A DNA stretch of 64,000 nt, taken from contig CM049314.1 in NCBI GenBank assembly GCA_026874595.1, forward strand, positions 53,613,812-53,677,811. Direction: 5' to 3'. The translations under genes and the position numbers were made by a program. The notes beneath the pieces are model-generated. The model ran no database searches. It was not told the DNA's origin and saw only the letters and a list, made by a program, of their open reading frames with translations. Below are positions 1 to 61,229 of this stretch, in pieces; the first letter of the stretch is position 1, and each line of letters begins with the position of its first letter. The stretch is from Sipunculus nudus (Eukaryota; Annelida; Sipuncula; Golfingiida; Sipunculidae).

Positions 1-3000
1 AGGAAAGTCTTGTGAGCAGAGGTATCGTGTCAGCAGGATGGTCGTGTAAACAGAGGTATCGTGTGAGCGGAATGGTCTTGTTAACAGAGTTATCGTGTCA
101 ACAGCATGGTCATTTAAACAGAGGTATCGTGTCAGCAGGATGGTCGTATAAGCAGAGGTATCGTGTCAGCAGGATGTTCGTGTAAACAGAGGTATCGTGT
201 GAGCAGGATGGTCTTGTTAACAGAGGTATCGCGTCAACAGGATGGTCATGTAAGCAGAGGTATCGTGTCAGCACGATGGTCGTGTAAGCAGAGGTATCAT
301 GTCAGCATGATGGTCGTGTAAACAGAGGTATTGTGTGAGCAGGATGGTCTTGTTAACAGAGCTATCGTGTCAATAGAATGGTCATGTAAACAGAGGTATC
401 GTGTCAGCGGGATGGTCATGTAAACAGAGGTATCGTGTCAGCAGGATGGTCGTGTAAGAAGAGGTATCGTGTCAGCAGGATGGTCTTGTGAGCAGAGGTA
501 TCGTGTCAGCAGGATGGTCTTGTGAGCAGAAGTATCGTGTCAACAGGATGGTCATGTAAACAGAGGTATCGTGTCAGCAGGATGGTCATGTAAACAGAGG
601 TATCGTGTGAGCAGGATGGTCTTGTTAACAGAGGTATCGTGTGAGCAGGATGGTCTTGTTAACAGAAGTATCGTGTCAACAGGATGGTCATGTAAACAAA
701 AGTATCCTGTCAGCAGGATGGTCGTGTAAGCAGAGGTATCGTGTCAACAGGATGGTCGTGTAAACAGAGGTATCGTGTGAGCGGGATGGTCTTGTTAACA
801 GAGGTATCGTGTCAACAGGATCGTCGTGTAAACAGAGGTATCGTGTGAGCGGGATGGTTGTGTAAGCAGAGGTATCGTGTCAGCAGAATGGTCGTGTAAG
901 CAGAGGTATCGTGTCAGCAGGATGGTCGTGTAAGCAGATGTATCGTGTCAGCAGGATGGTCGTGTAAGCAGAGGTATCATGTCAGCATGATGGTCGTGTA
1001 AACAGAGGTATTTTGTGAGCAGGATGGTCTTGTTAACAGGGCTATCGTGTCAATAGGATGGTCATGTAAACAGAGGTATCGTGTCAGCAGGATGGTCGTG
1101 TAAGGAGAGGTATCGTGTTAGCAGGATGGTCTTGTGAGCAGAGATATCGTGTCAACAGTGTCAGAGGTATCGTGTCAGCAAGATGGTAATGTAAACAGAG
1201 GTTTCGTGTCAGCAAAATGGTCGTGTAAACAGAGGTATCGTGTCAGCAGGATGGACGTATAAACAGAGGTATCGTGTGAGCAGGATGGTCTTGTTAACAG
1301 AGGTATCGTGTCAACAGGATGGTCATGTAAGCAGAGGTATCGTGTCAGCACGATGGTCGTGTAAGCAGAGGTATCATGTCAGCATGATGGTCGTGTAAAC
1401 AGAGGTATTGTGTGAGCAGGATGGTCTTGTTAACAGAGCTATCGTGTCAATAGAATGGTCATGTAAACAGAGGTATCGTGTCAGCGGGATGGTCATGTAA
1501 ACAGAGGTATCGTGTCAGCAGGATGGTCTTGTGAGCAGAGGTATCGTGTCAGCAGGATGGTCTTGTGAGCAGAAGTATCGTGTCAACAGGATGGTCATGT
1601 AAACAGAGGTATCGTGTCAGCAGGATGGTCATGTAAACAGAGGTATCGTGTGAGCAGGATGGTCTTGTTAACAGTGGTATCGTGTGAGCAGGATGGTCTT
1701 GTTAACAGAAGTATCGTGTCAACAGGATGGTCATGTAAACAAAAGTATCCTGTCAGCAGGATGGTCGTGTAAGCAGAGGTATCGTGTCAACAGGATGGTC
1801 GTGTAAACAGAGGTATCGTGTGAGCGGGATGGTCTTGTTAACAGAGGTATCGTGTCAACAGGATGGTCGTGTAAACAGAGGTATCGTGTGAGCGGGATGG
1901 TCTTGTTAACAGAGTTATCGTGTCAACAGGATGGTCATGTAAGCAGAGGTATCGTGTCAACAGGATGGTCATGTAAGCAGAGGTATCGTGTCAGCAGGAT
2001 GGTCTTGTAAGCAGAGGTATCGTGTCAGCAGGATGGTCGTGTAAGCAGAGGTATCGTGTCAGCAGGATGGTAATGTTAACAGAGGTATCGTGTCAGCAGG
2101 ATGGTCTTATGAGAAGAGGTATCGTGTCAGCAGGATGGTCGTGTAAACAGAGGTATCGTGTGAGCGGGATGGTCTTGTTAACAGAGGTATCGTGTCAACA
2201 GGATGGTCGTGTAAGCAGAGGTATCGTGTCAGCAGGATGGTCTTGTGAGCAGAGTTATCGTGTCAGCAGGATAGTCTTGTGAGCAGAGGTATCGTGTCAG
2301 CAGGATAGTCTTGTGAGCAGAGGTATCGTGTCAGCAGGATGGTCGTGTAAACAGAGGTATCGTGTGAGCGGAATGGTCTTGTTAACAGAGTTATCGTGTC
2401 AACAGGATGGTCATTTAAACAGAGGTATCGTGTCAGCAGGATGGTCGTATAAGCAGAGGTATCGTGTCAGCAGGATGGTCGTGTAAACAGAGGTATCGTG
2501 TGAGCAGGATGGTCTTGTTAACAGAGGTATCGTGTCAACAGGATGGTCATGTAAGCAGAGATATCGTGTCAGCAGGATGGTCTTGTTTACAGAGGTATCG
2601 TGTCAACAGGATGGTCATGTAAACAGAGGTATCGTGTCAGCAGGATGGTCGTATAAGCAGAGGTATCGTGTCAGGAGGATGGTCGTGTAAACAGAGGTAT
2701 CGTGTGAGCAGGATGGTCTTGTTAACAGAGGTATCGTGTCAACAGGATGGTCGTGTAAGCAGAGGTATCATGTCAGCATGATGGTCATGTAAACAGAGGT
2801 ATTGTGTGAGCAGGATGGTCTTGTTAACAGAGCTATCGTGTCAATAGGATGGTCATGTAAACAGAGGTATCGTGTCAGCGGGATGGTCATGTAAACAGAG
2901 GTATCGTGTCAGCAGGATTGTCGTGTAAGGAGAGGTATCGTGTCAGCAGGATGGTCTTGTGAGCAGAGGTATCGTGTCAGCAGGATAGTCTTGTGAGCAG

Positions 3001-3450
3001 AAGTATCGTGTCAGCAGAATGGTCTTGTGAGCAGAGGTATCGTGTCAGCAGGATGGTCGTGTAAGCAGAGGTATCGTGTCAGCAGGATGGTCCTGTAAAC
3101 AGAGGTATCGTGTCAACAGGATGGTCATGTAAACAGAGGTATCGTGTCGGCAGGATGGTCGTGTAAGCAGAGGTATCGTGTCAACAGGATGGTCATGTAA
3201 GCAGAGACATCGTGTTAGCAGGATGGTCGTGTAAGCAGAGGTATCGTGTCAGCAGGATAGTCGTTTCAGCAGAGTGGTCGTGTGGGCAGAGTGCTCATAT
3301 CAGGGATATCGTGTCAGCAGGGTAGTTAGACTAAACAGAGATATCGTGTCAGCAGGGTGGTCGTGTCAGCAGGGTGGTCGTGTAGACAGTACTCATGTCC
3401 GCAGGGTGGTCGTGAAGACAGGGTGCTCATGTCAGCAGGGCAAGCCATAT
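1..3450. repeat. 34-bp minisatellite array (about 100 units, runs off the left edge)
   Basis: The unit is recognised by the core GAGGTATCGTGTCAGCAGG followed by ATGGTCNTGTAAGCA. Successive GGTATC cores are 34 bp apart (for example 21 and 55). Units differ mainly at a few positions (GTCAGC, GTGAGC or GTCAACA; TCGTGTAA, TCTTGTTAA or TCATGTAA). The array is regular to about 3258, then decays to 3450 through shorter variants built on CAGGGTGGTCGTGT. A 23-bp truncated unit lies near 1141-1170. Because 34 is not a multiple of 3 and the open frames only echo the repeat, I do not call it coding. Confidence 0.97.
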
Positions 3451-16539: not shown

Positions 16540-18890
16540 CTACCGAAAGGTAAATTTCATCTATATCAGATATATGGGGATCATGAGGGATCGTGGTTCC
16601 CAATTTAATTCATTTTCAGAACAATACTTTAAACAACATAGAGGGTAATAACATCTGGATACAGTTTAAATCTGAGTGGCTAACCGCTTACTGGTTAACT
16701 ATGAAGTCCCCTTTCCACAGAGAAATTAATTACGGAGCTAAATTGGTCAATGTCGTAAACTTGTTTCCTGTGCTTTAAGATTCGTGTTATCTTTATTTAC
16801 ATATAATTACTTGCACTTAACATACAAATGAATTCTGATTATTTCTTTTGTCTTTTTGACATAAAAAATCCAGTAATTAGTGTTTGATCATAATTAACTG
16901 TGGATATATAGGTGTAGGTTAATTCAATGAAATAATTCACAGTGATGATTAGTTTTGTAGATTGTTTAATGTATTATAGTAATTGTTAAAAAGAAAACGC
17001 GTATTTTCATCTTCGGTTGTATAAACAATTAGTTTATATATAACTGATCATTTTGAGTATGCTTTACAATATACCAAAGCACATTCAAGGTGTAATGTCA
17101 TAGGTAGGCCTATCATATTATCAATATTGTATTTATAAATTTTTGTTGTTGCATGCCACAAATCATATCTTTCAGACCATGAAACTCCTGACCACAATAA
17201 CATCTAGACAGCCTTGTTGCTAAAGGGGCGAACAAGTAACTTTACACTCCTTGAAAGCTCGACGTTTCTATGTGTTAAAAAATGCTGAAAAATAATGAAT
17301 ATTTGTTTATATTTAAATTATGTACCACTACACTTTGGAACTTCAAACAGAATCTGCAACCAGTTCGAAAATATCAACAACAGTTGTTAAATTTTAAAAT
17401 TGGTCAGCTACTGAGTGACTTAAAGTGAGGCATCGACGAAGGAGGGGCAGTGTTAACAAACCCGGAAATCAAATCACCATTATATTAAAATAAAAGTAAA
17501 CTCTGGCTACAATAACAACGGCACGTGCCCTCCCTTACAAGCACCTACCACACATCAGGAGCATTAGGACGAGTCTCGCGGTCATCTTGTACATTATACG
17601 AATCAGCCGACCTCCTTTCTGCGGTTTTAACTTTACTAAGAAAGTTGAACTTATATAATCACGCCACGGCCAGCAACCAGAACATACACACGTACACGTG
17701 CACGGCGGGACCGTGGTTCCCAGCAGGGTGTATTTAAATATCCACGATCATTCCCACGTTTCTTTGTTTTCAGGGCAGGAACATATGTTAACCGGAGTGC
17801 AGCAAGGTGCCGGGATCTGTCGCCGGTGCATCGGTAAATGTTGGTATGTCGGAGTCACGTGACAAAATTAACTTGACATGCTGCAATCTTATTTTTGGCA
17901 CTGAGCATGTTCTGATATATGTTTATGAAAATATAAATGAGACAGGTAAAGAAATGTATAATAATCAAATTAAAAAAAACTTTGGTTCGTGTGATAGTGT
18001 GGTATGCCCATATTCTTAAGGTTGAATTTTCGCGATTTTCATTTTTTACTGCTTTCACCTTTAATACAATATTATATGAAATTTTAAATAAGTGACTGTT
18101 AAGTTGCGTTGATGAGGCATTTTCTTCAGGAAGGCTTTACTGTCTCCGCCATCAGGGTATACATTCATGCGTGTGTGTTTGTTTGTGTGTGTTTGTTCAC
18201 ATCATAACTGTATTTCGGGATGGGCCAATAAAGAATAGATTTGGTTTTAGTGTGGATCCTGCACATGATCCTGATTCAGGAATGTCATCAAAGAATATTC
18301 ACAATTGTGAAGTTACTTATACACGAATGAACCTGGGAATATAAGGGTGGAATATAGGAATGCAAACATGATTTATGACGGAGGCTTGCATTCTTTAAGA
18401 TTCAGATTTCTAGTTTTCGCGATAATTTCCCCTTCTTGAATATCGCAGATTGGGAACCCTCGAGAACATAAAACCAACCACAGTGTCTGAGGATTGTAGG
18501 CTTGTATTAATTCATTGCAGCTTTCATAAAAAAATAGGCCAGAAAACGTGGATATCACCACACACAGGCTACTTGTTTTGTTTATATCAACGTATGTATA
18601 TAGTATGAGGGGGCCCGCCAAAATAATCAAAACAAATTCAACAAGGGCATCTAGCAGCAAGTCAGATAAGCCAGAGCTTTGCAAATGGCATTTTGCGATT
18701 ACAAGTGACCTTTCTTTCGCTGCATAAATGCAACTTACCACCTTAAGTTACATGTTTTCCCCGTTTGTCAACATTGCTGTGTTTACAAACATGTTGTTGA
18801 TAAACAAGTTCATACATCCTTCACGTAGGCATATTAACTTTTCACAACCAGAAGTAGCCTTATATCATTATTATATTTACAGAGGAAGCC
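16540..18890. other. AT-rich region with a GC-richer patch, no gene recognised
   Basis: Mostly AT-rich. About 17500-17880 is richer in GC and CpG (CACGTACACGTGCACGGCGGG, then a TATTTAAATA), which could be a promoter patch. No exon chain is visible on either strand. A 122-codon minus-strand frame at 18373-18741 has hydrophobic stretches but no recognisable family. Confidence 0.4.
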
Positions 18891-18897
18891 AGAAATC

Positions 18898-19206
18898 ACC
18901 ATAATTTATTATATTTCTTTATAAATCTACCATAGTTTATATAATTATTCTTTATAAATGTACCATAGTTCATTATAATTCTCTACAAAAAATGTACCAT
19001 ATAATATTATAATTCTCTGTAAATGTACCATAGTTTATTATAATTCTCTATAAATGTACCATAGTTTATTATAATTCTTTATTAATGTACCATAGTTTAT
19101 TATAATTCTCTATAAATGTACCATAATTATTATAGTTCTTTATAAATGTACCATAGTTTATTATAATTTTTTTATACATGTACCATAGTTTATTTTATTT
19201 TTTATA
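18898..19206 (+). repeat. 31-bp AT-rich tandem repeat (about 10 units)
   Basis: The unit is built on ATGTACCATAGTTTATTATA followed by ATTCTCTATAA. Units in the centre are nearly identical, and both edges are degenerate. Confidence 0.9.
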
Positions 19207-19410
19207 ATTGTATATCAGGAACAAAATGTTTCATACGCTACAGCTGGGGTAAATATTAGATCTATAACTGTAGCACTGAAATTTAATTTTGAGAATTTTA
19301 ACTGGAGTATATTAATTGATTTAGGGAAGATCTACTTTGCATATACATGTATACTTGAACATGTTTCTATCACACTTCAAACGAACCTTCTTGTGTGTTT
19401 GAATAAAACA

Positions 19411-19540
19411 GGGAAAGTTATCCTTATATTGAGCAGATAACAGGAAAAGTTATCCTTATATTGAGCAGATAACAGGAAAAGTTATCCTTATATTGAGCAG
19501 AAAAGGGTGAAAGTTATCCTTATATTGAGCAGAAAACGGA
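19411..19540 (+). repeat. 32-bp tandem repeat (4 units)
   Basis: Four units of GAAAAGTTATCCTTATATTG followed by AGCAGATAACAG, nearly identical. Confidence 0.95.
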
Positions 19541-21070
19541 GCATATTTTAAAAGTATTTTAGAACTGCACAAGCCTTCCCCGTCAGCAAAAAATGTGTCC
19601 TTAAGGGCCCAACTGTAAAAGAGTTGAAGACGAGAGACCAGGGTGATTAGAGACTAAGGCCTGTCAGTTTTAAGGTTGAATCATTATAATTAAATGAAAA
19701 GTTTATTCAGGTATGAAGGCCTCTGGCCCATGGACCAAAAAACAAAGTACTGCAATGAATACATAAATATATGGGGTGCTCATCCAAGTCAGAGTAAAAA
19801 CATAAAGTATAACAAGTGCATGAATAATAATAACAATAACAACAATAATACTTGATATAGATATGAAATCAGCCATAAGATATCTGAAATTAGGTGTAAA
19901 GACACTATGCTCATCATTATATCAGTCTATGGAGAACTCAGACATATCTACATGTTTTCAAAAGTCTCCAAAAATAACAACAATACATTTTGAGTGTGCT
20001 GCCACCCATTGGCAAACTTTTACGGTTCACCATTAACTCTGGTGTTGATTTAAAGTAATATACTGAAACTTTAACTGTAATGTTTATACACATATTGGAA
20101 TGATGATTTTATGATAATCAATTATGATATACAAAATATGGTAACATTACGATATAAATGCATTAACACAAGAAAATATAATTACACAAGATACAGTGAC
20201 CAATTATTGGTGCGAGCATAATTATGCAGATGTTATACTCAACCGTGATAAATATACATGACATGCATCGTCCCTTTTATTGAAATGAATGATATATATA
20301 TATAAAGCAAAATTTTTCATTGTATAAATATTTTTGCTCGACATCAGCTAAATTAAGCTATTTGTATTGTTTCGAAACGTGTTCACTTAGATATTTTCTT
20401 CTTAGTTCATCATATATAAATTTCATGATAAAGTGACTTTTACCCGTTTTTCTGTTTCCAGCAAGGATTTGTACTGCATATAACTTTGTAGTTTTTGATT
20501 ACTGGCCATTTGTTCATTAAATTCTTGTTTACCCATGTCGTGAACTCTTTGCTGGGACATGCATAAGAATAAATTCACATCCCTAACATCCTGTATAATC
20601 CAGGCTAAACCAAATCCATAACTAAATATGATAATTTTCACCTTTGCTACCCAGTTGATTCTACCAGCTGTGTCTAGCTGTTACAAACAATAATATGCCT
20701 GTTTGACAAGTCTTTTGTCAGTCATGTTCAATATTTTGACCCAGTATTTTTATCAGTGTTGTAAAACAATGTATTTTAATAGGTAATCTTCCACATTCTT
20801 CTATAAAACAGCAGGAGTGGAAGTTGATGAGCCCAGTTTTAGCATGAAATTACAAAATTTTGTTTAAACTCTTTCTAAGTTTTCACATTCTCTCAATCCC
20901 CATGCATAGTTCACTTCCATATTTCAGGACTGGTAAAACCTTTATATAAAAATGTTAAATAACGGATTTAAAGATGTAGATTTGTAACGATTACAGCTGA
21001 GTTTTAAAACGCTCGGCCTTCTCCGCTGGCGACCCGGGTTCGATTCTCGGGGTGGCTATGAGAGTGGGTT

Positions 21071-22310
21071 CACTGTAAAATATGGAGACACGTCTAGTGT
21101 TTTTGTACAAAACGCCACTGTTTTATTTGAATACCCACGTGTTTTTAAGTGCTATGATAAAACGTCAGTGTTTTGGCCGAAAACACTAGTGTCTACTAAT
21201 AGACACTAGACGTGTTTTTACTGACATGTTTATAAGCTCCTTTAAAGTGGTATAATTCTGACAAAAATGAATTAATGACAAAATATTGATATACTTTGTG
21301 CATATGCATGAGCGCGCAAGTTTTCTTCAAATGCTAATTACATTGAAACATTATCAAATGTTTGTAAAAATAAACTTTTTTTAATAATAGGTACTATATA
21401 TACGCGTATTTCAGGGATTATTGTTTGGGGTCAGTATTTTTGACAAATACATATTTGCAGTTAAATAATTTATGGTGGATTGAAGGTTTAAGAGGTTTTA
21501 TAATGCCTATCCCTTTATTCATTAATTCGTCAGCCCCTATAACAAGAGCAGTATAAACACCAGGGTGTTTATAAGCGACACGATATAAACACCTGGGAAA
21601 ACGCTAGTGTTTTTATGGTTGACCAAGGTCCAGTGCTTAATGAGACCACGTGATGCTGTACGGCCAGCTGCTGATAATGCGCGGTTGACTTGAAATGACC
21701 TACATCTTAGGCTGCACATGTATAGACAACTAAACATTCAGTTCACGCGATTTTTATCCAGTGTCATCCCGAAGACCACCATGTGAAAACAGGTACGTCT
21801 TTATTTATCTTGACAGTTATTATATTTATCATATAATTTATAACAATAAGAAAACATGCAACTACATCAAATTACTTTTATTGGTTACTTTATCAGTCCA
21901 ATATGATATAAGACATTGTTACAATGTAAATGTAAAAATGGCGGCCATGTTGATTTCAACCTTGTTTTGTTAACATATAAACTGAGGTGTGGTAGAAGTT
22001 ATGGTTGAGTAATTGTTTGCATATATATACGTGTGTGTGTGTGTGTGTCTGTGTGTGTGAATGTGTGAAGATGATCTTTAGAGTGCTCGAGCTGTAACAG
22101 AGGGAGAGACGTTCGACTCGACTACGGGATCTTGTTGTTTAAGGTTGCTACCCTAGAGAGGGCAGCTCCATCTGCTCCCCGCCCCAAGAAGAAGGGGGGG
22201 GGGGGGGCAGTGCCATACACAAAAACACACCGCAATGCCAAAAAAACCCTGTCATTTACATTCATCTTCAGCCAAAATATCAAAACCTGCCCTGAGTAGA
22301 GCATGTTTTC

Positions 22311-22369
<59 letters not shown>

Positions 22370-22370
22370 C

Positions 22371-22402
<32 letters not shown>

Positions 22403-22476
22403 ATACACTCTCTCTTTATATATATATGTGTATATGTGTGTGTGCTCGTGATATGTTACGTTATGTTATAGACTAA

Positions 22477-22517
<41 letters not shown>

Positions 22518-24274
22518 CTATATATATATTTAGTATATATGCGTATATCTTATGCATGATCTGTAAATTAATCTTTCAGCTCAATCACGGCCACTCTTAA
22601 TCATGAGGACAAACCGAGGACAAATAAGACACAACAGTCTGTCATCAGAAGGCATTACCAGTGCCATGTTTCTAGTCAACAAGAATTAACCTAGTGGTAA
22701 ATATATTTTTTACATCTGAAGTGAGCACATAATTCATGTTCCTCAGAGAACCTGCTTTTTTCGATGAATACACCTTGATTTAACGAATAAATATGTGTAT
22801 ATAGATTTATCTTTACTGCAGTACTGGAATTGTCAACATACATAGCTTTACGTTTACCGTTATGTTATTGAACTATTTAAATATATAACAACGACTAATA
22901 TATACATGTATTCTTTATATTCTTACAATAATTCACAACTTTTCATTAATCTCATATAAAATTATATAGGCTTGTTTCTTTCTGCAGAATCATTTTAAAA
23001 TGTTGTTTAATCATTATAATTATCTCATATCTGACGATTCAAAAAATATATCTATATAATTTCTTTTTACAGGCATGTGTATGTATAAGCACCATAAAAA
23101 AAACGATAATTTTCTATTTATCAATATGGTTGATTAGTCATCTATGTGTCTGTTTTTGTCTTCCGTTATTAAACAAGACCTTTAATTAAGGTTTCAGATT
23201 TGCTGCTTTTCTTCAAGTAAACAAAACTGTAGTGTTCTCATTCATCCTCGAAGCATTATTAAAATGTGCTGGGCAAATGATCTAAAAGTTTGTAACTGTC
23301 CATGAACTGTTGTTACAATTTCACAGAAACTATATTACAGATTCATTTATTTCTACAGATTTATAATGGGAACTAATATACATACTTCACAGCTGATTCC
23401 ATGATCATAATACAAATTCTTTGATTGTCTTATTTTAGAGAATAACCGAGACAGAAGTGGACCTTCATGCATGACATGTGGATAGAAGGGGTCCCATACA
23501 AAAGACAACCTCATCGTCCGGTTATATAAAAGTCTGACCTGGAAGACATCCTTGAATTCCATCCTATAGAATTCCATATGGTGGCTGATATGACAAAAGT
23601 CTTGACCACCAAGAATAGTGTTTACCAGACCTAATAAATTGTTGATGCTGTACTTTATATATGTGAGCAATTCAGATTCACGTTGGATTTATTTACTACC
23701 GGTTGGTTTAGTTCAGCAGTTAGCACTATAAGAGGTGAAGCGAATTTCAATCAGAACTACTGGAGAAAATGTCTGAACTTCAAAATCAGGATGGACACAA
23801 TTAATGTTATATACTGAACTTTATCATCACTACATTGTTTCGCACTGAAATAAACAAATATGATTAAACTGCAACCACTGTTTCTTTTCTCGTTTCTGCA
23901 AGGTACATATATGCTTCTGCAATGTATTCTTCAAAGTTCTCTATTTGCAAATAGACGAGCATGTTCACAAGACGTGGATGGGTGACATTAAAAGTAATTC
24001 ATGCCGATATCGAGGTGTAAAAACACCGACGTCTTCCCCATATAAACATTAGACGCGTCTATAGCCTTAAAACACCGGCGTCTTCCCTATAAACACTAGA
24101 CGCGTCTATCCTGAAAACCCCCGTGTTTATTCCAGTGTCTACCCTTAAAAACACCGGCGTCTATCCCATAAACACTAGACGCGTCTTAATTTGTAAACAC
24201 TAGACACGTTTTCTAGCTGTTACACTTAGGTGTTTTTCAGTAAGACGTGTTTACCCTTTTTTGTTTTTACAGTG
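21071..24274. mobile_element. 3.2-kb CACTG-ended DNA transposon with subterminal repeats (nonautonomous)
   Basis: It interrupts the SINE. The termini are CACTGTAAAA and TTTTTACAGTG, with TT on each side (21069-21070 and 24275-24276) as a possible 2-bp target duplication. Subterminal regions hold many copies of ACACTAGACGCGTCTA-like motifs in both orientations: left 21088-21240 and 21540-21600, right 24000-24250. A CACTG terminus with short duplication and iterated subterminal sites fits the CMC (CACTA/EnSpm) group. I see no transposase frame. The interior contains compound microsatellites. Confidence 0.7.
22312..22402. repeat. Compound microsatellite (CT)n(AT)n(GT)n
   Basis: About 18 CT units pass into AT units and then GT units. 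Smaller related tracts follow to about 22445, and a further (TA)n lies at 22481-22514. The 78-codon frame across it is repeat-derived. Confidence 0.95.
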
Positions 24275-24423
24275 TTGTAGTGGCCCGTCCAAGGTCGGTG
24301 GTTTTCTCCGGGTCCTCCGATTTCCTCCACCCTTTCCGACTACCGAGCGCAAACATCGGTGCCATGAAGAGTGCCTCGTCTTATGTTTATAACTAGTTGA
24401 ACAATCCATGTAAAATAAATAAA

Positions 24424-24424
<1 letters not shown>

Positions 24425-24469
<45 letters not shown>
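24425..24469. repeat. (TA)n tail of the SINE
   Basis: About 22 TA units follow AAATAAATAAAG at the SINE 3' end. Confidence 0.9.
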
Positions 24470-24472
<3 letters not shown>

Positions 24473-25200
24473 TTATTACATGGTATACCGGTATTTCTTT
24501 ATTAATCCTATTGCTTTCTGTGCTTGGTTTGCTTGATATTTATGACATTCAGACCCTTTACTAAATCTTGAAAAAACTGTTCCGAGATATTTACATATAA
24601 ATATGAGCTTACTGTTTCAATATCATGACCCTAAAATTTCAATTTTTCATTTCCCCCCCAGTTTTCTACCATTTCCGAATAAACTACCTTTGTTTTCTTA
24701 AGGTTGACATTCATCCCATATCAGAAGGACTCCAAGAGTTTTAATGTGGTTTTGATGGTTTCCAACTGTGTCTCCTAAATTGAATAAAACAATATCATCT
24801 GCATACATAAGTTTAGCTAATTTGGCAATTTTTCAGATAAGGATAACCCACAGTAATCAGAATGTATTATCATATGATAAAGTTCATAAAAATGATAAAT
24901 ACCATAGGACTTATCATTCAACCCTGTCGTTTTCCGGCCAGTCTCACACTGGAAATATTCAGAAAAGCCTGTTTCTGTAAAAAAAAAAAAAAAAAAAAAA
25001 AATGACTTTAATTTAAAATGCATGGAATTGAGGATTTTAAAGAAGCTTCTTGTTACACCAATTTTAAATAGAACATACATTAAAATATTATGTTTTATAC
25101 TGTCAAAAGCTCTTGAAAAATCCACAAATAATGCATATACTCTTCTTTTAGGTTAAGATATAGACTTCTGAATTCCTGTCATTAAAGTAAACATATTATC

Positions 25201-25432
25201 TACAGTGCTTCTTGCTGCAGTGTCTCTATCCTCTTCGACTCCTCTCTATTTTCTCGACCCCTGGTGCGGAAAGCAGTAGCGTAATCTCGCGGCTCCCTGC
25301 TTGGCTTGTGTGCAGTGCGTCTATCAACTCCATCAAAATTACGCTTAGGGAGCGCGCAGGTCTGAAGTCCAAGACTTCAGCAACCTGTAGCTGCTCGAAA
25401 AAGCACAAACATTTGCAATCAATTTACAGTGC
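25201..25432. mobile_element. 216-bp GC-rich insertion in the LINE RT, flanked by TACAGTGC
   Basis: The direct repeat TACAGTGC occurs at 25201-25208 and 25425-25432. The DNA between is GC-rich and breaks the LINE RT between a QAG block and the TVDNMFTL block that normally follow closely. An 8-bp duplication is typical of hAT elements, but no clear terminal inverted repeats are present, so the class is unknown. Frames across it (60 and 86 codons) are not recognised. Confidence 0.6.
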
Positions 25433-25687
25433 CTTTTTTGCTTCTGACTCCCGCCTGTTCCTCCACCAGTAAATTAAGCTGCTTCCACTGTCTATTTAGT
25501 TCAGTAGCCTATTATTCAATAATTAGCTGAATATCTTTCCTATGCAATTAAATAATGAAATTCCTCTTTATATCATAGATGTCACCAAACTTGTATAAAG
25601 GTATAAAAATTGCTTGTGCCCAGTTTTCAGGAAATACCCCTTGATGCAAGGTCTCATTAAATAACATCAATAACATATCCTGGCAAG

Positions 25688-25980
25688 CAGAAGCGGATCC
25701 GAGGGGAGGGTCTAGGGGTTCCCCCCCCCCCCCTTTCTGGACCCGGGGACCCTTTTTTAAGCTCTGTCATAAGTCCTCCTGGGTTGGACCCCTCCTATAG
25801 CTATTCTTAAATCCTGGATCCGCCCCTGTCAAGGTTCAAGCTAAAAAGGTCCAGTCTGGTCCGGAAAGGAGGCGGTCTAGATCACATAATTTGGTTTGAA
25901 ACCCTTAAAAAAGGTTGTTTCGGCTCAACAAAAGGGGAAAGGGGACCCCTTGGACCCCCCCCCCCCTGGATCCGCCACTG
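25688..25980. mobile_element. hAT-like MITE pair (GGATCCGCCCCTG ends)
   Basis: It starts CAGAAGCGGATCCGAGG and ends CCTGGATCCGCCACTG. An additional complete end, CCTGGATCCGCCCCTG, lies inside at 25813-25828, so this is probably two adjacent or nested copies of the family also seen at 4283. It contains two poly-C runs. It truncates the LINE to its left. Confidence 0.7.
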
Positions 25981-26640
25981 AATTATTACATAAAATTAAA
26001 ATATATAACAAAATCTTTTAAAATATACATCATGGTAACAGCCTTGATATGAATGATGCAGTCAGACATTCAGTTATCTACTCATGGATGCAAAATCAAA
26101 TTTGATAACTAGAATTTCGACTACACATATTTCAATACAACTGCACGTTAAATATACCCTGTCAGATAATACATTTTACTGTTTACGAATGTGCGCATGA
26201 GATCTATCGTGGAACTTCAAACAGCTCTCATGTGTGGAGAATGCGAGAAATCATGTCACGAGAACTACCGTGAATTTCTCCCTGTGTGGAGGTTGGCGTG
26301 TACCCACCCTTCCGCCAGAGGTCGTTTCTACTCAAAACGAATCTCTTCTGTTTGGGCACTGTGGGAAGGACCGAACTACTTGACAAGTGTAGCCGGTACC
26401 AAATATATCATGCACCTATAGTTCGTCCCAGTACCCGTGTCAACATGTTTTTCTGGGATGATTTTTCATACGTGTAAAGCAGTGTAAACCTTTCTTGTCC
26501 AAAAACAGGAGCTATTCCGCCGACTACCTGCGTAAAAAGTAATGCCTTACCTTGTTTTGATTTTGTATGAGACAATCTAAAATATGACAAAACAAGTTAC
26601 AGATTTTACGAATTATTCCTTGTCTGAGAACTGATAATAA
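25981..26640. other. Upstream region without a recognised gene
   Basis: AT-rich, then more GC-balanced from about 26190 to 26480. A 76-codon + strand frame (26191-26421) is not recognised, and I see no splice-linked partner. Confidence 0.4.
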
Positions 26641-26658
26641 AAAAGCCAGTCAAACATA

Positions 26659-26717
26659 TGACGTCAGTCAATTGAAGGTGACGCGCGACCGATCACAGTG
26701 ACGTCTTTGTGACGTCA
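26659..26717. promoter_or_regulatory. Cluster of CRE sites (TGACGTCA)
   Basis: Two consensus TGACGTCA palindromes lie at 26659-26666 and 26710-26717, with a third near-match GTGACGTCT between (about 26698-26706). They lie 4.2 kb upstream of the CFAP300 start. Without the transposons at 27158-30843 they would lie about 0.5 kb upstream. Binding by CREB/ATF-type factors is inferred from the motif alone. Confidence 0.5.
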
Positions 26718-26958
26718 CTGATGTCTAACGAACACAAAAACACAGCCATAGGCACGGAAAGTGTACCATGGAGGAATGTACTGTCCAGCAGTGCCGATAA
26801 GACGCCATCCACGGTATTTCAGCAATAAGGCAAAAGAGTCGCAAAGTGAATTCGTTTTACATGATAACTAGGCTACTTTGTACAAAATCCGACGCATTTT
26901 AACGGACTACATTGGCTCATTTTCACCACTTGTATATTTCCGCTGTCAGTGTACATGT

Positions 26959-27037
26959 AGACTGGTACCCCGCTCTATTATGGCACCGCTTCTCTAGGCC
27001 AAGGCTTGAGGGCCTTAATAGAGCAGGGTACCAGTCT
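26959..27037. mobile_element. 79-bp miniature foldback element (AGACTGGTACC ends)
   Basis: AGACTGGTACCCCGCTCTAT at the left is matched inverted by ATAGAGCAGGGTACCAGTCT at the right, nearly the whole element folding back. It is flanked by GTGTACATGT (26949-26958) and GTGAACATGT (27040-27049), a possible ~10-bp target duplication. The same ends bound the larger element that starts at 27158. Confidence 0.7.
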
Positions 27038-27157
27038 AAGTGAACATGTTGATGCCGCGCGGTGCATTATTGGAGTCAGATTTTGACTCCAACAATCCCT
27101 AGACAGCAATGTCGTACTATTTAGAGTCCGAGTCTGCGCAGTGTGGGCATGTACCTT

Positions 27158-30100
27158 AGACTGGTACCCCGCTCTATTATGGCAGCCGCTGCTCTAGGCC
27201 AATCATAGAGACGGGCGTACAACGCCATTTTATTTACTCCCGGCAGACTGTTTCCAACTCCAGTATGTATTATATGATAAAAATAAGCATTTCGTTTGCT
27301 CAGAGAAGTTACCTAAAGTTGGCTGTACATTATGTGTGACATTAATGATTAGATTAATAGATATTAATAATAAATCATTGCTACGCACAGTGGAATATCA
27401 AAGATACAGTATATCGTATTATCTATACATCCATCATTCAATTTTTGTGCAACATATCATTCTTCAATATTTGAAAACTAGAAATAACAAAAGAAAAATA
27501 TTTTATAAAAAAATCTTCATGGATTATCAGCCAGGATCGCGTGAACGTCCATGACAACCGGTATGAGCGTGCATACTGGAGTTGGAACCAGTCTACGGGT
27601 AAGTCAGGAGTTGCAACTGGGAGTACTGTACGCCTGTCTCTATGCTTGGCTGAGAGCCATAATAGAGGGGAGGGTATAATTCGCTGATCAGCGCGCTGAT
27701 CAGCGGTCTGCAGTATAAAACGCTGATCAGCGCGCTGATCAGCCACCTTTAAAAGACAGCATTGATTTCCGGCAAATTATCTCCCATACAGCAACCTCCG
27801 CCTATTTTGTGATTAAATATGATAAAAAGACACTTTTCCTATCAGTATTACGTATTCACAAACATATACATTTATTTTTATTGTGTTTATAATTATACAT
27901 GAAACGCAAGTTACCTGCCAGTGACTATTTCGCTGATCAGCGGGCTGATCAGGAACCCTTCTTCCAAGCAATTATTTTAGACAAATTAGCCCCATATAAC
28001 AACCTCCGACTATTATATGATTAAATTTGATTTAAAGATACATATTCTATAAGTGTTTCATATTTACAAACAAACGAAAACACTTTTAATGTGTTACTTA
28101 TTATGCATGAAACCTTTCTACCACCTACTATTTCGCTGATCAGCAAACTGCGCAATCGCTGATCGGCAATGATTTACGTACTTCTTGACTAAGATACCTG
28201 TCACGGGTGATTCGCTATAATGGTAATACTGAAGGCTCTCAGTTGTTTTACTTATATCCTGTGAAACCGAGTGATTGCCAATACATCGCCCATTCCAGGC
28301 TACTTCATACAACTTTAAAATATCAGTCCCCCACCGACCACTCGGAGATATTAGCTAACAGTAGGGGGCGCTGCATTAATTAATGTCAGGTGTTCACCGG
28401 CCAGGTGAGATAAATAGCTGAGATATGAACTTAGTATGAATGTATATAAAATTTGAATTTATCGAAAAAAAATGTTAAATGTATATGGCCATAAAAAAAG
28501 ACTGATTATCCTCTTATTTTTTATTAAGAACTGTACGTATAGCCTATAAGGATTCTTTCACTCTTCATTTATAATATAATCGTTCCTTAAAAACTTTCTC
28601 GAGTTTCTTTACATCCCTCTTATATTTCCCCTTTTTGCATTTAAAAAGTGGGTCGCCAGAATCTTTTTCAACACCATTGTATAGATGATTTGATCGATTT
28701 TAACACGATGTTGATAGACTACTCCTGTTTTAATCCCACTTATATATATATTATATATATATGTTGAAGTACGTCAAAGAATAACTCAACAAAAACATCA
28801 TTATCGGTATTTTTTTTTATTTTTTTTCATTTTACAACAGGACATTTCCATTATTGTGTAAAATTTTCCGCATATCTATTGCTTTATCATCGATACATAT
28901 AAAAAACGATTGGAATATGAATGCTTTTCATAGTTTTGGAAAACAGCATACACTACCAACATAAATATAATGAGTACTAGAAAGGTTGAAGGAGTAATTA
29001 CTTTTAATTACAACACTACAATAAATCATCATCTTTTTTTTTAACTTTTAACGGCAGTGAATGTCGATGAACGGTGTTGAAACAATAAGGTAACAGGATG
29101 GATGTAACCTCTAAATTCTACAATGGCATTGTTATTCAGAACTTTATCGTTTTTATAGGGATCAATGTGTTAGGTATTATAAAATATTAAACTCTTAAAA
29201 ATTTATTATAAAAGAAGTCTGCATGCTTCGAGTAATAATTTTGCCAATGATTTCATTTATTTTAATTCAACACAGTTCTCCTTCTTTAGCACAGTTATAT
29301 GTTGAAATAGGCATCATTTCAAGAAATAAATAAAATGACTTAGAAATATGTTAGGAAAATGATTTTATCGCCCACATTTTTATTGACCGAGGAAGATTGC
29401 TATAAATTTCCCTTTTATTTATTGCATTATACCTTCTGTGGGTTGCAGTTTTATTTTGTTTCAGGATATAATCGGAACAAATTTAAATTAAAAATACGCA
29501 ATTTACAAGGTTAAAATATATTTTTATAATACAATACATCGTACAAGTGAATCTTCCATATTTTTTTCTATATAAATTATGCGGGACCGCGCAAGTCTGT
29601 AACAGTGTTGAAATTGATGATACACTTAGGGCATTAATTTAGCCGAAACTATAATTTAATATGAAAGTACCTGTTCTGCTAAAAGAAATTTTATACACTA
29701 GTAGTTAATATTTTTATTGCCATAATAGACTCCAAAAAAATAAATATTAAGATGTCATTTTTCAGATGCTGTATACCTGCTGAAATGGGAAGTTTTTCGT
29801 AGAAAGACCCATTAAATTTTAAATCCTTTTACGGTTTCTTTAGGTGAACGACTATATATGCCTTCTTCTAAATAATTAATGATTGCCCTCTCACTTTTGT
29901 CTGATCAAAATACACGTTTTTCCTATATAGGCCTACTTTTAAATTAATTTTAAAAAATCAACAATATTAGAGATTGCAAAAAAATCCACAGTCCAAATAT
30001 TTTGCTGTTGGTTCATTCGTGGTATTTTCACTTAAATATATATGCAAGATATTGTAAATAAATTAAAATTTTAAAATTCAATTAAACTTAGTATTAATCT

Positions 30101-30843
30101 CGGCTATTTCTATCATCTGGCCGGTGAAATATACCAACAAATTACTGCAGCGCCCCCTACTGTCAGCTAATATCTCCTGTGGGGAACGGATTTTTGTAAA
30201 TTGTATGTGGTACGATGTTTTGGCAGTCATTCGGGTTTCACAGGAAATAATTAAGTAAACAACTGAGAGGTTTCTATGTTACCATTATAGAGAATCACAG
30301 ATGACAGGTATCATAGTCATGAAATACATATGACATATTGTCATATATGTCATTGCCGATGAGCACTTTATCAGCGTCAAGTGATTGCGCAGTTTGCTGA
30401 TCAGCGAAATAGGTGGTAGAAAGGTTTCATGTAACACATTAAAAGTGTTTTCGTTGTTTATGAATATGAAACATTGATAGAATATATATCTTTAGATCAT
30501 AATCACACAATAGTCGGAGGTTGTTATATTTGGGCTAATTTGTCTAAAATAAATGCTTGGTTTGAAAGGTTCCTAATCTGCGCCGCTGATCAGCGAAATA
30601 GTCACTGGCATGTAACTTGCGTTTTCATGTATAATTATGAACACAATAAAAATATATGCATATCTTTGTAAATACGTAACACTGATAGGAAAGGTGTCTT
30701 TTAATCATATTTAAACACAAAATAGGCGGAGGTTGCTGTATGGGAGATAATTTGCCTCAAATTAATGCTTTAATTGAAAGGTGGCTGATCAGCGCGCTGA
30801 TCAGCGAATTATACCCTCCCATAATAGAGCAGGGTACCAGTCT
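27158..30843. mobile_element. ~524-bp foldback element split by a second transposon, abutting CFAP300
   Basis: The left end AGACTGGTACCCCGCTCTAT is at 27158 and the right end AGCAGGGTACCAGTCT finishes at 30843. Its own sequence is 27158-27667 plus 30830-30843; the rest is the inserted element 27668-30820 and its duplicated target. Internal arms pair (TTCCAACTCCAGTATG near 27252 with CATACTGGAGTTGGAA near 27576). Flanks GCATGTACCTT (27147-27157) and GCGTGTACCTT (30845-30855) look like an 11-bp target duplication with one mismatch. The right end lies 33 bp before the CFAP300 ATG. Confidence 0.8.
27668..30820. mobile_element. 3.15-kb long-TIR transposon with 9-bp target duplication
   Basis: The termini are GGGAGGGTATAATTC and GAATTATACCCTCCC. 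They are bounded by a perfect 9-bp duplication ATAATAGAG (27659-27667 and 30821-30829) created inside the surrounding foldback element. The inverted arms are about 750-780 bp (27668-28450 and 30070-30820), about 85-90% alike by eye. Both carry repeated GCTGATCAGC palindromes. The left arm has an extra copy of the terminal palindrome block. The ~1.6-kb AT-rich core has no transposase. Long TIRs plus a 9-bp duplication fit Mutator-like (MULE) elements; that class call is inference. Confidence 0.85.
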
Positions 30844-30848
30844 AGCGT

Positions 30849-30861
30849 GTACCTTCGCAAC
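30849..30861 (+). promoter_or_regulatory. Degenerate RFX X-box candidate upstream of CFAP300
   Basis: GTACCTTCGCAAC has an intact right half (GCAAC) and an imperfect left half (GTACC) relative to the X-box GTTGCCATGGCAAC. It lies between the transposon end (30843) and the ATG (30877). RFX factors commonly drive ciliary genes through X-boxes near the start, but this match is weak and one base short. Confidence 0.3.
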
Positions 30862-30876
30862 TTCGTTAGCGTCATC

Positions 30877-61229
<30,353 letters not shown>

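Follow-up and report, generated by a model that had tools for sequence, protein, structure and literature searches.

How does a gene keep a place to start transcription when transposons have been inserted directly in front of its start codon? The question is raised by CFAP300 of Sipunculus nudus, in a stretch of 64,000 nucleotides (GenBank assembly GCA_026874595.1, contig CM049314.1, positions 53,613,812 to 53,677,811 of the forward strand; hereafter, the window, in whose own numbering all positions are given). The ATG of CFAP300, at 30877, is preceded by a stack of four non-autonomous DNA transposons from three families, all with target duplications of 9–10 bp. Together they place 4,549 bp between the gene and an old upstream sequence that once ended 23 bp from the ATG. 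Judging from the DNA sequence, we find it moderately probable that these are insertions of the Mutator-like element (MULE) type piled up upstream of CFAP300, with transcription most likely starting in the 32 bp retained between the stack and the ATG.

The structure of the stack, as four interlocking insertions, is established. At its left, the target copy GGCGTGTACC (26295–26304, forward strand) agrees with 27146–27155 at 9 of 10 positions, and contiguous upstream sequence of the locus stops at its last base. Next comes the first transposon, hereafter TE-A (26305–27145), both boundaries of which are set by copies on contigs C3 and C7, the right one also by a copy on C6. It is interrupted at 26958–27038 by an 81-bp derivative of a miniature inverted-repeat transposable element (MITE), with the duplication AGTGTACATG/AGTGAACATG (9/10). 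The middle copy of a shared target follows on the forward strand (27146–27156), comprising the right duplication of TE-A, GGCATGTACC (27146–27155), and the left duplication of a MITE, GCATGTACCT (27147–27156). The left 511 bp of this MITE (TAGACTGGTACC..., 27157–27667, forward strand) are split by the 3153-bp inner foldback element (27668–30820) from its right 15 bp (CAGGGTACCAGTCTA, 30830–30844, forward strand). The duplication of the inner element, ATAATAGAG, is present on the forward strand at 27659–27667 and 30821–30829 (9/9). The right MITE duplication GCGTGTACCT (30845–30854, forward strand; 9/10 against 27147–27156) opens the retained 32 bp (30845–30876, forward strand), the candidate start-site region. 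Exon 1 and this remnant (30845–30990) have a single match genome-wide.

A first-pass annotation had described two nested transposons here, and its coordinates and perfect 9-bp duplication for the inner element were exact. The outer element it reported is real, with coordinates of 27157–30844 rather than 27158–30843 and a size of 526 bp rather than ~524 bp, and the gap to the ATG is indeed a few dozen bp, 32 rather than 33. It had placed the promoter and 5' untranslated region inside transposon sequence, in the remnant, or beyond the transposons. These options stand, except that the last lies 4.55 kb and not 3.7 kb away, since what had passed for ordinary flanking DNA is a transposon too. The 10-bp duplication of the outer element, TE-A, the 81-bp derivative and the target common to TE-A and the MITE are additions to that description.

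The whole reads in the order GGCGTGTACC – TE-A – GGCATGTACCT – MITE – GCGTGTACCTTCGCAAC...ATG. TE-A and the MITE thus lie at the same target, GGCGTGTACCT, with a 1-bp shift, 23 and 22 bp from the ATG, respectively. Duplications match at 9/9 for the inner element and at 9/10 for the other three. Random position pairs in the window, drawn outside the satellites since satellite DNA inflates the estimate, match at 9/9 with a frequency of 2.3e-5 and at 9/10 or better with 8.9e-5. The left and right target copies read GCGTG and the middle copy has A in place of G, so that a single G>A change accounts for both outer mismatches. The inner foldback element certainly inserted after the MITE, and the 81-bp element after TE-A. 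An order of TE-A before MITE was considered and dropped, since either order of insertion gives an identical sequence. The predicted empty site would read GGCGTGTACC followed directly by TTCGCAACTTCG, with a single GGCGTGTACCTTCGCAAC site under the shared-target reading.

To place the elements in families, we searched the species' own 1.43-Gb genome. The first and last 37 bp of the inner element are perfectly complementary. Within each arm (~730 bp) are two ~200-bp units containing CGCTGATCAGCG palindromes, and the two arms account for all 12 sites in the window that match GCTGATCAGC with no more than 1 mismatch. Such very long, internally repetitive inverted arms are those of a foldback-type element, and no Pfam domain was found in six frames of 27157–30848. 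The arm gave 323 first-look candidates, 40 of which were scored; 20 regions were fetched, 17 of them with both ends. A 9-bp duplication with at most 1 mismatch flanks 15 of the 17 complete copies (11 perfect), the exceptions being L021, which has an 8/8 repeat, and L026. Twelve of the 17 measure 2.7–3.3 kb (range 1.6–4.6 kb). Against the majority sequence of 13 copies of near-full length, the window copy diverges by 2.9%, a value that includes divergence preceding its insertion here. The exact pattern of its ends had no match in viral contigs. One 12-kb locus of the family (G000:C6:54626603-54638633; L014, L015) appears to be an inverted duplication whose two mirrored halves contain identical open frames. 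It was rejected as an autonomous copy, as no convincing domain was found (best Pfam E 0.026 and 0.091, below the cut-off, in L014 2868–6110).

The MITE measures 526 bp here after removal of the inner element and one duplication copy, and has symmetrical ends (TAGACTGG...CCAGTCTA) within imperfect inverted ends of ~85–110 bp. There were 1504 first-look candidates, and 38 distinct copies were retained from the 40 best-scoring, with the window copy and one complex locus omitted. All 38 are 537–543 bp long (family ~538 bp). Duplications with at most 1 mismatch, like the 10-bp one in the window, flank 33 of them (26 of 9 bp and 7 of 10 bp; 27 perfect). The family is thus short, non-coding, high-copy and homogeneous in length, with inverted ends and a target duplication, as a MITE should be. 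Three of the five copies without an accepted duplication (L052, L059, L062) probably lie within a larger repeat, because their flanks are identical. In L067 and L070 the target duplications (GGGTACCAG, TATTATGGG) resemble the MITE's own ends, which suggests self-nesting. The 81-bp element is an internal deletion of the MITE, with the left 45 bp and right ~36 bp kept. The site of its insertion is uninterrupted in two of three aligned TE-A copies (L101 and L102, on C7 and C6), while L100 (C3) is deleted across it. No match to the exact pattern of the outer ends was found in viral or GTDB contigs.

TE-A is a high-copy, non-autonomous element. It measures 750 bp once the 81-bp insert and one copy of the duplication are subtracted, and has the ends CACCCTTCCGCC...GCGCAGTGTG and two TGACGTCA motifs. 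A search with 26500–26957 gave 1143 first-look candidates, of which 40 were scored. Copies on C3, C7 and C6 are alike up to 27144–27147 and divergent beyond, and those on C3 and C7 set the left end at 26305. On C3 its own duplication is TTATACGAT (9/9, scored by script), and on C7 it is CTGACACCT, the latter read by eye from the flanks, as the script saw no exact left end. For the inverted ends there is a weak, gapped match only, obtained without a shuffle control, and the TE-A frames scanned contained no Pfam domain. The cAMP response element motifs of TE-A were rejected as an ancestral CFAP300 enhancer, the region being a transposon.

By their behaviour, all four elements appear to be of MULE type and may belong to the superfamily. 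Target duplications of 8–11 bp, characteristic of MULEs, are present in the inner element, the MITE, TE-A (in the window, on C3 and on C7) and the 81-bp element, and long terminal inverted repeats, which are not universal in the superfamily, in the inner element (~730 bp). The end sequences of the stack elements are TAGACTGGTACC (MITE), GGGAGGGTATAATTC and CACCCTTCCGCC (TE-A). When 150 of 252 candidates were scored, 131 matches to MULE transposases emerged in the genome, and a 607-aa open frame is present in 43 of these. The family with these frames (e.g., L096) has near-identical scores and looks homogeneous and recently active. In the one copy of this family that was fetched, no ends like those of the elements here were seen.

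The stack is well supported as recent, given the few private substitutions in two of its elements. Across 523 aligned bp, 3 substitutions are private to the MITE copy when it is set against both the closest relative sampled and the majority of the family (exact Poisson limits, calculated by hand, 0.6–8.8, or ~0.1–1.7%). TE-A differs from the C3 copy at 10 of 717 positions, with 4 private by the script rule and up to 6 by eye. On this basis we would expect distant relatives to lack the stack, and it may still be polymorphic.

The gene itself shows no damage. CFAP300 is encoded on the forward strand (30877–61229) by seven exons (30877–30974, 39908–39989, 44993–45065, 56430–56596, 59505–59677, 60430–60496 and 61101–61229), with GT/AG at every intron, 262 aa, no internal stop and a stop codon ending at 61229. 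The identity proposed in the first-pass annotation was confirmed by the Pfam CFAP300 match (E = 7.7e-84, obtained with an approximate version without exon 3). CFAP300 is single-copy: a protein search of the genome returned six matches, all within this locus, and exon 1 with its flank has the one match noted above. At the sensitivity of these searches, no paralogue, retrocopy, second haplotype or empty site was seen in the assembly; a retrocopy, had one existed, would reveal the leader. As the gene is single-copy and its 262-aa frame intact, the stack is probably tolerated. CFAP300 is required for dynein-arm assembly in motile cilia, and patients with homozygous loss have immotile airway cilia (PMC9561811). 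Within the gene, a satellite with a 65-bp unit (~161 copies, 45424–55913) fills most of intron 3 (45066–56429), and intron 1 has a reverse-transcriptase fragment (31726–32560; RVT_1 3.2e-13).

Where, then, would transcription start? We narrowly favour the retained 32 bp, followed by a spliced leader and then by a transposon promoter. In the mechanism we propose, at least four non-autonomous MULE-type insertions would have accumulated just upstream of a CpG-rich first exon, with MULE-type machinery supplying the activity in trans, and the site would have been hit repeatedly because its promoter chromatin was open. As the target duplication kept the 32-bp stretch (the 10-bp target copy plus 22 bp) intact, the start-site region would have survived while everything upstream was shifted by 4.55 kb, and CFAP300 would still be expressed from it with a very short leader.

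Several lines of evidence are consistent with this. The old upstream end and exon 1 together hold 15 CpG in 246 bp, a density reached in 1.2% of the 778 segments of the window and in 2.8% of 720 overlapping ones taken at 20 random loci of the genome. The translation initiator of short 5' UTR (TISU) has the consensus SAASATGGCGGC at the ATG and goes with a very short leader; the string is absent from PMC2518114. The start context of CFAP300, CATCATGGCGGA, agrees with TISU at 10 of 12 positions, and only 12 of the 3598 ATGs in the window, that of CFAP300 included, do as well or better. TISU transcripts have a median leader of 12 nt, and positions 5–12 are described as essential for transcription (PMC2518114). 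MULE-type elements are known to insert near genes (PMC6446971), Pack-MULEs in maize and rice peak just upstream of start sites, and four of four tested Mu promoter insertions in maize left expression unchanged (PMC7337890).

Other observations weigh against it. One of the two TISU mismatches is at position 12, inside the stretch essential for transcription. ATG GCG is, moreover, a common protein start in general. Of 20 Mu insertions in maize 5' untranslated regions, five were knockouts or strong knockdowns (PMC7337890), and the haplotype could be a weakened allele. An RFX X-box (RTNRCC N1-3 RGYAAC, near the start; PMC2375033) was sought across the junction of target and remnant and rejected, as the best match in 30845–30890 was 9/12, a score of at least 9 being reached by 260 of 400 random 46-bp segments. 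MITE flanks elsewhere are only marginally richer in CpG than the random genome (18 loci against 40 random kb, p 0.046–0.066), and the promoter preference assumed here is taken over from other organisms. Neither MITE nor inner ends were found in the four MULE-transposase loci read, in which TE-A ends were not looked for.

The alternative that survives best is a spliced leader. In this case the old promoter, upstream of 26305 and now 4.57 kb away, would still be used, and the four transposons would be removed as a new first intron; we regard this as possible, though somewhat less probable than a start in the retained 32 bp. In its favour, the old upstream end, rich in CpG, has stayed intact, and the retained 32 bp contain one AG acceptor (first exon base 30870) at the 86th percentile of 3263 window AGs under the acceptor model used. 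Of the six real CFAP300 acceptors, three score similarly (83rd, 87th and 87th) and three higher (98th–100th), but one in seven window AGs scores as well. A leader exon or donor is not identifiable from the sequence alone.

It is unlikely, in our estimation, that the assembled haplotype happens to carry the stack as a polymorphic allele that is partly disabling, with an empty site and a normal promoter on other haplotypes. The low private divergence of the MITE and TE-A would fit such an allele, and one disabled copy could go unnoticed, as the described patients with CFAP300 loss are homozygous (PMC9561811). However, no second haplotype or empty site was found in the assembly, which may simply be haploid, and the coding frame is intact, though damage would not yet be expected after a recent hit.

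Quite unlikely, too, is a promoter within the transposons, with the end of the MITE or of the inner foldback, or else TE-A, supplying the core promoter and most of the 5' untranslated region. No ATG occurs from 30766 to 30876, and a transcript starting in the last ~110 bp would therefore meet the CFAP300 ATG first; TE-A carries its two TGACGTCA motifs, and in flies two of the analysed roo insertions in one promoter gave new start sites (PMC4982627). On the other hand, there is no strong TATA-like match near the junction (best 6/8), TE-A lies 3.7 kb from the ATG, and among the many genomic copies of the same transposon ends nothing was seen that marks any as a promoter. An assembly artefact, with repeats misjoined beside CFAP300, is highly improbable: all four elements come from high-copy families, but a misjoin would not produce interlocking duplications, nor elements that each keep both ends with a matching target copy.

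A bolder version of the start in the retained 32 bp, which we hold only tentatively and think unlikely, would make the GGCGTGTACCT target, 22 bp ahead of the ATG, a genuine hot spot of insertion for two unrelated families, marked by promoter architecture and not by sequence, with each duplication re-creating the start-site DNA. GTGTAC occurs in none of the 33 accepted MITE-family duplications, so a sequence preference of the MITE does not explain the shared target. If the hot-spot reading is true, the gene kept its start while swapping its whole proximal promoter for transposon DNA, in a natural promoter-replacement experiment.

Upstream of the stack, 26185–26246 is a ~60-bp hairpin-forming sequence with at least 38 other matches of 82–90% identity (40 of 58 candidates scored). 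All five other aligned copies end at GGAGAATG and are alike further left, and the sequence looks like a truncated repeat end; no Rfam match was found for it at E ≤ 1. The CpG-rich old upstream end is thus partly a short repeat relic. A forkhead motif (TGTTTAC) at 26180, expected 0.28 times per 326 bp, and an NRF1-like TGCGCA at 26192, within the relic, were not used as evidence. A divergent gene partner was sought and rejected, as no Pfam domain at E ≤ 0.01 was found on either strand of 17500–27156, except a reverse-transcriptase fragment; unspliced scans can miss genes with short exons. This fragment lies on the minus strand at 24817–25152 (5.2e-6, below the Pfam cut-off). By eye, 25690–25990, bounded by GGATCCG/GGATCCGCCACTG and C-runs, looks like another inverted-repeat element. 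Two further minisatellites are found at 7–3366 (34/68-bp units) and 38412–39299 (35-bp units).

The pile-up offers a clean test, set up by nature, of the way in which a gene retains a promoter. A single-copy ciliary gene with a recently displaced proximal promoter allows the direct question of which upstream DNA such a gene needs, through a comparison of natural alleles that have or lack the stack. A pitfall is also illustrated: what passes for an ordinary flank within a single window may turn out to be a further transposon, and only the whole genome reveals it.

Among known systems, the Tm1 Mutator/Foldback elements of root-knot nematodes (PMC3169594) resemble the stack in their composite foldback ends, MITE-like non-autonomous members, one case of nesting, and duplications of 8–10 bp, mostly 9, in 45 of 53 cases, with no target consensus. 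They differ in having tandem units of 13–15 bp and an identified transposase member, in contrast to the arms here, whose two ~200-bp units contain CGCTGATCAGCG palindromes. The MULE superfamily, including Rehavkus and Phantom, shares the 8–11 bp duplications, long inverted ends and insertion in or near genes (PMC6446971); membership rests on a transposase, and no transposase domain was detected in the elements here. Rehavkus has a minisatellite before its 3' end and a PHD-finger transposase, and the 9-bp duplication of the inner element would fit it; the inner arms contain internal repeats, but no coding sequence was found. The CG18446 promoter of Drosophila, with nine roo insertions, is alike in its repeated independent hits in a small promoter interval, some with new start sites, but involves one retroelement family with one insertion per strain (PMC4982627), whereas three DNA-transposon families are present here on one allele, two of them at the same target. 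The Mu elements of maize and Pack-MULEs of maize and rice are plant elements mapped experimentally (PMC7337890), whereas the CFAP300 stack is one natural locus known from sequence. Insertions just upstream of genes are already known, and the stack is a striking instance of them, ordinary in kind and unusual in degree.

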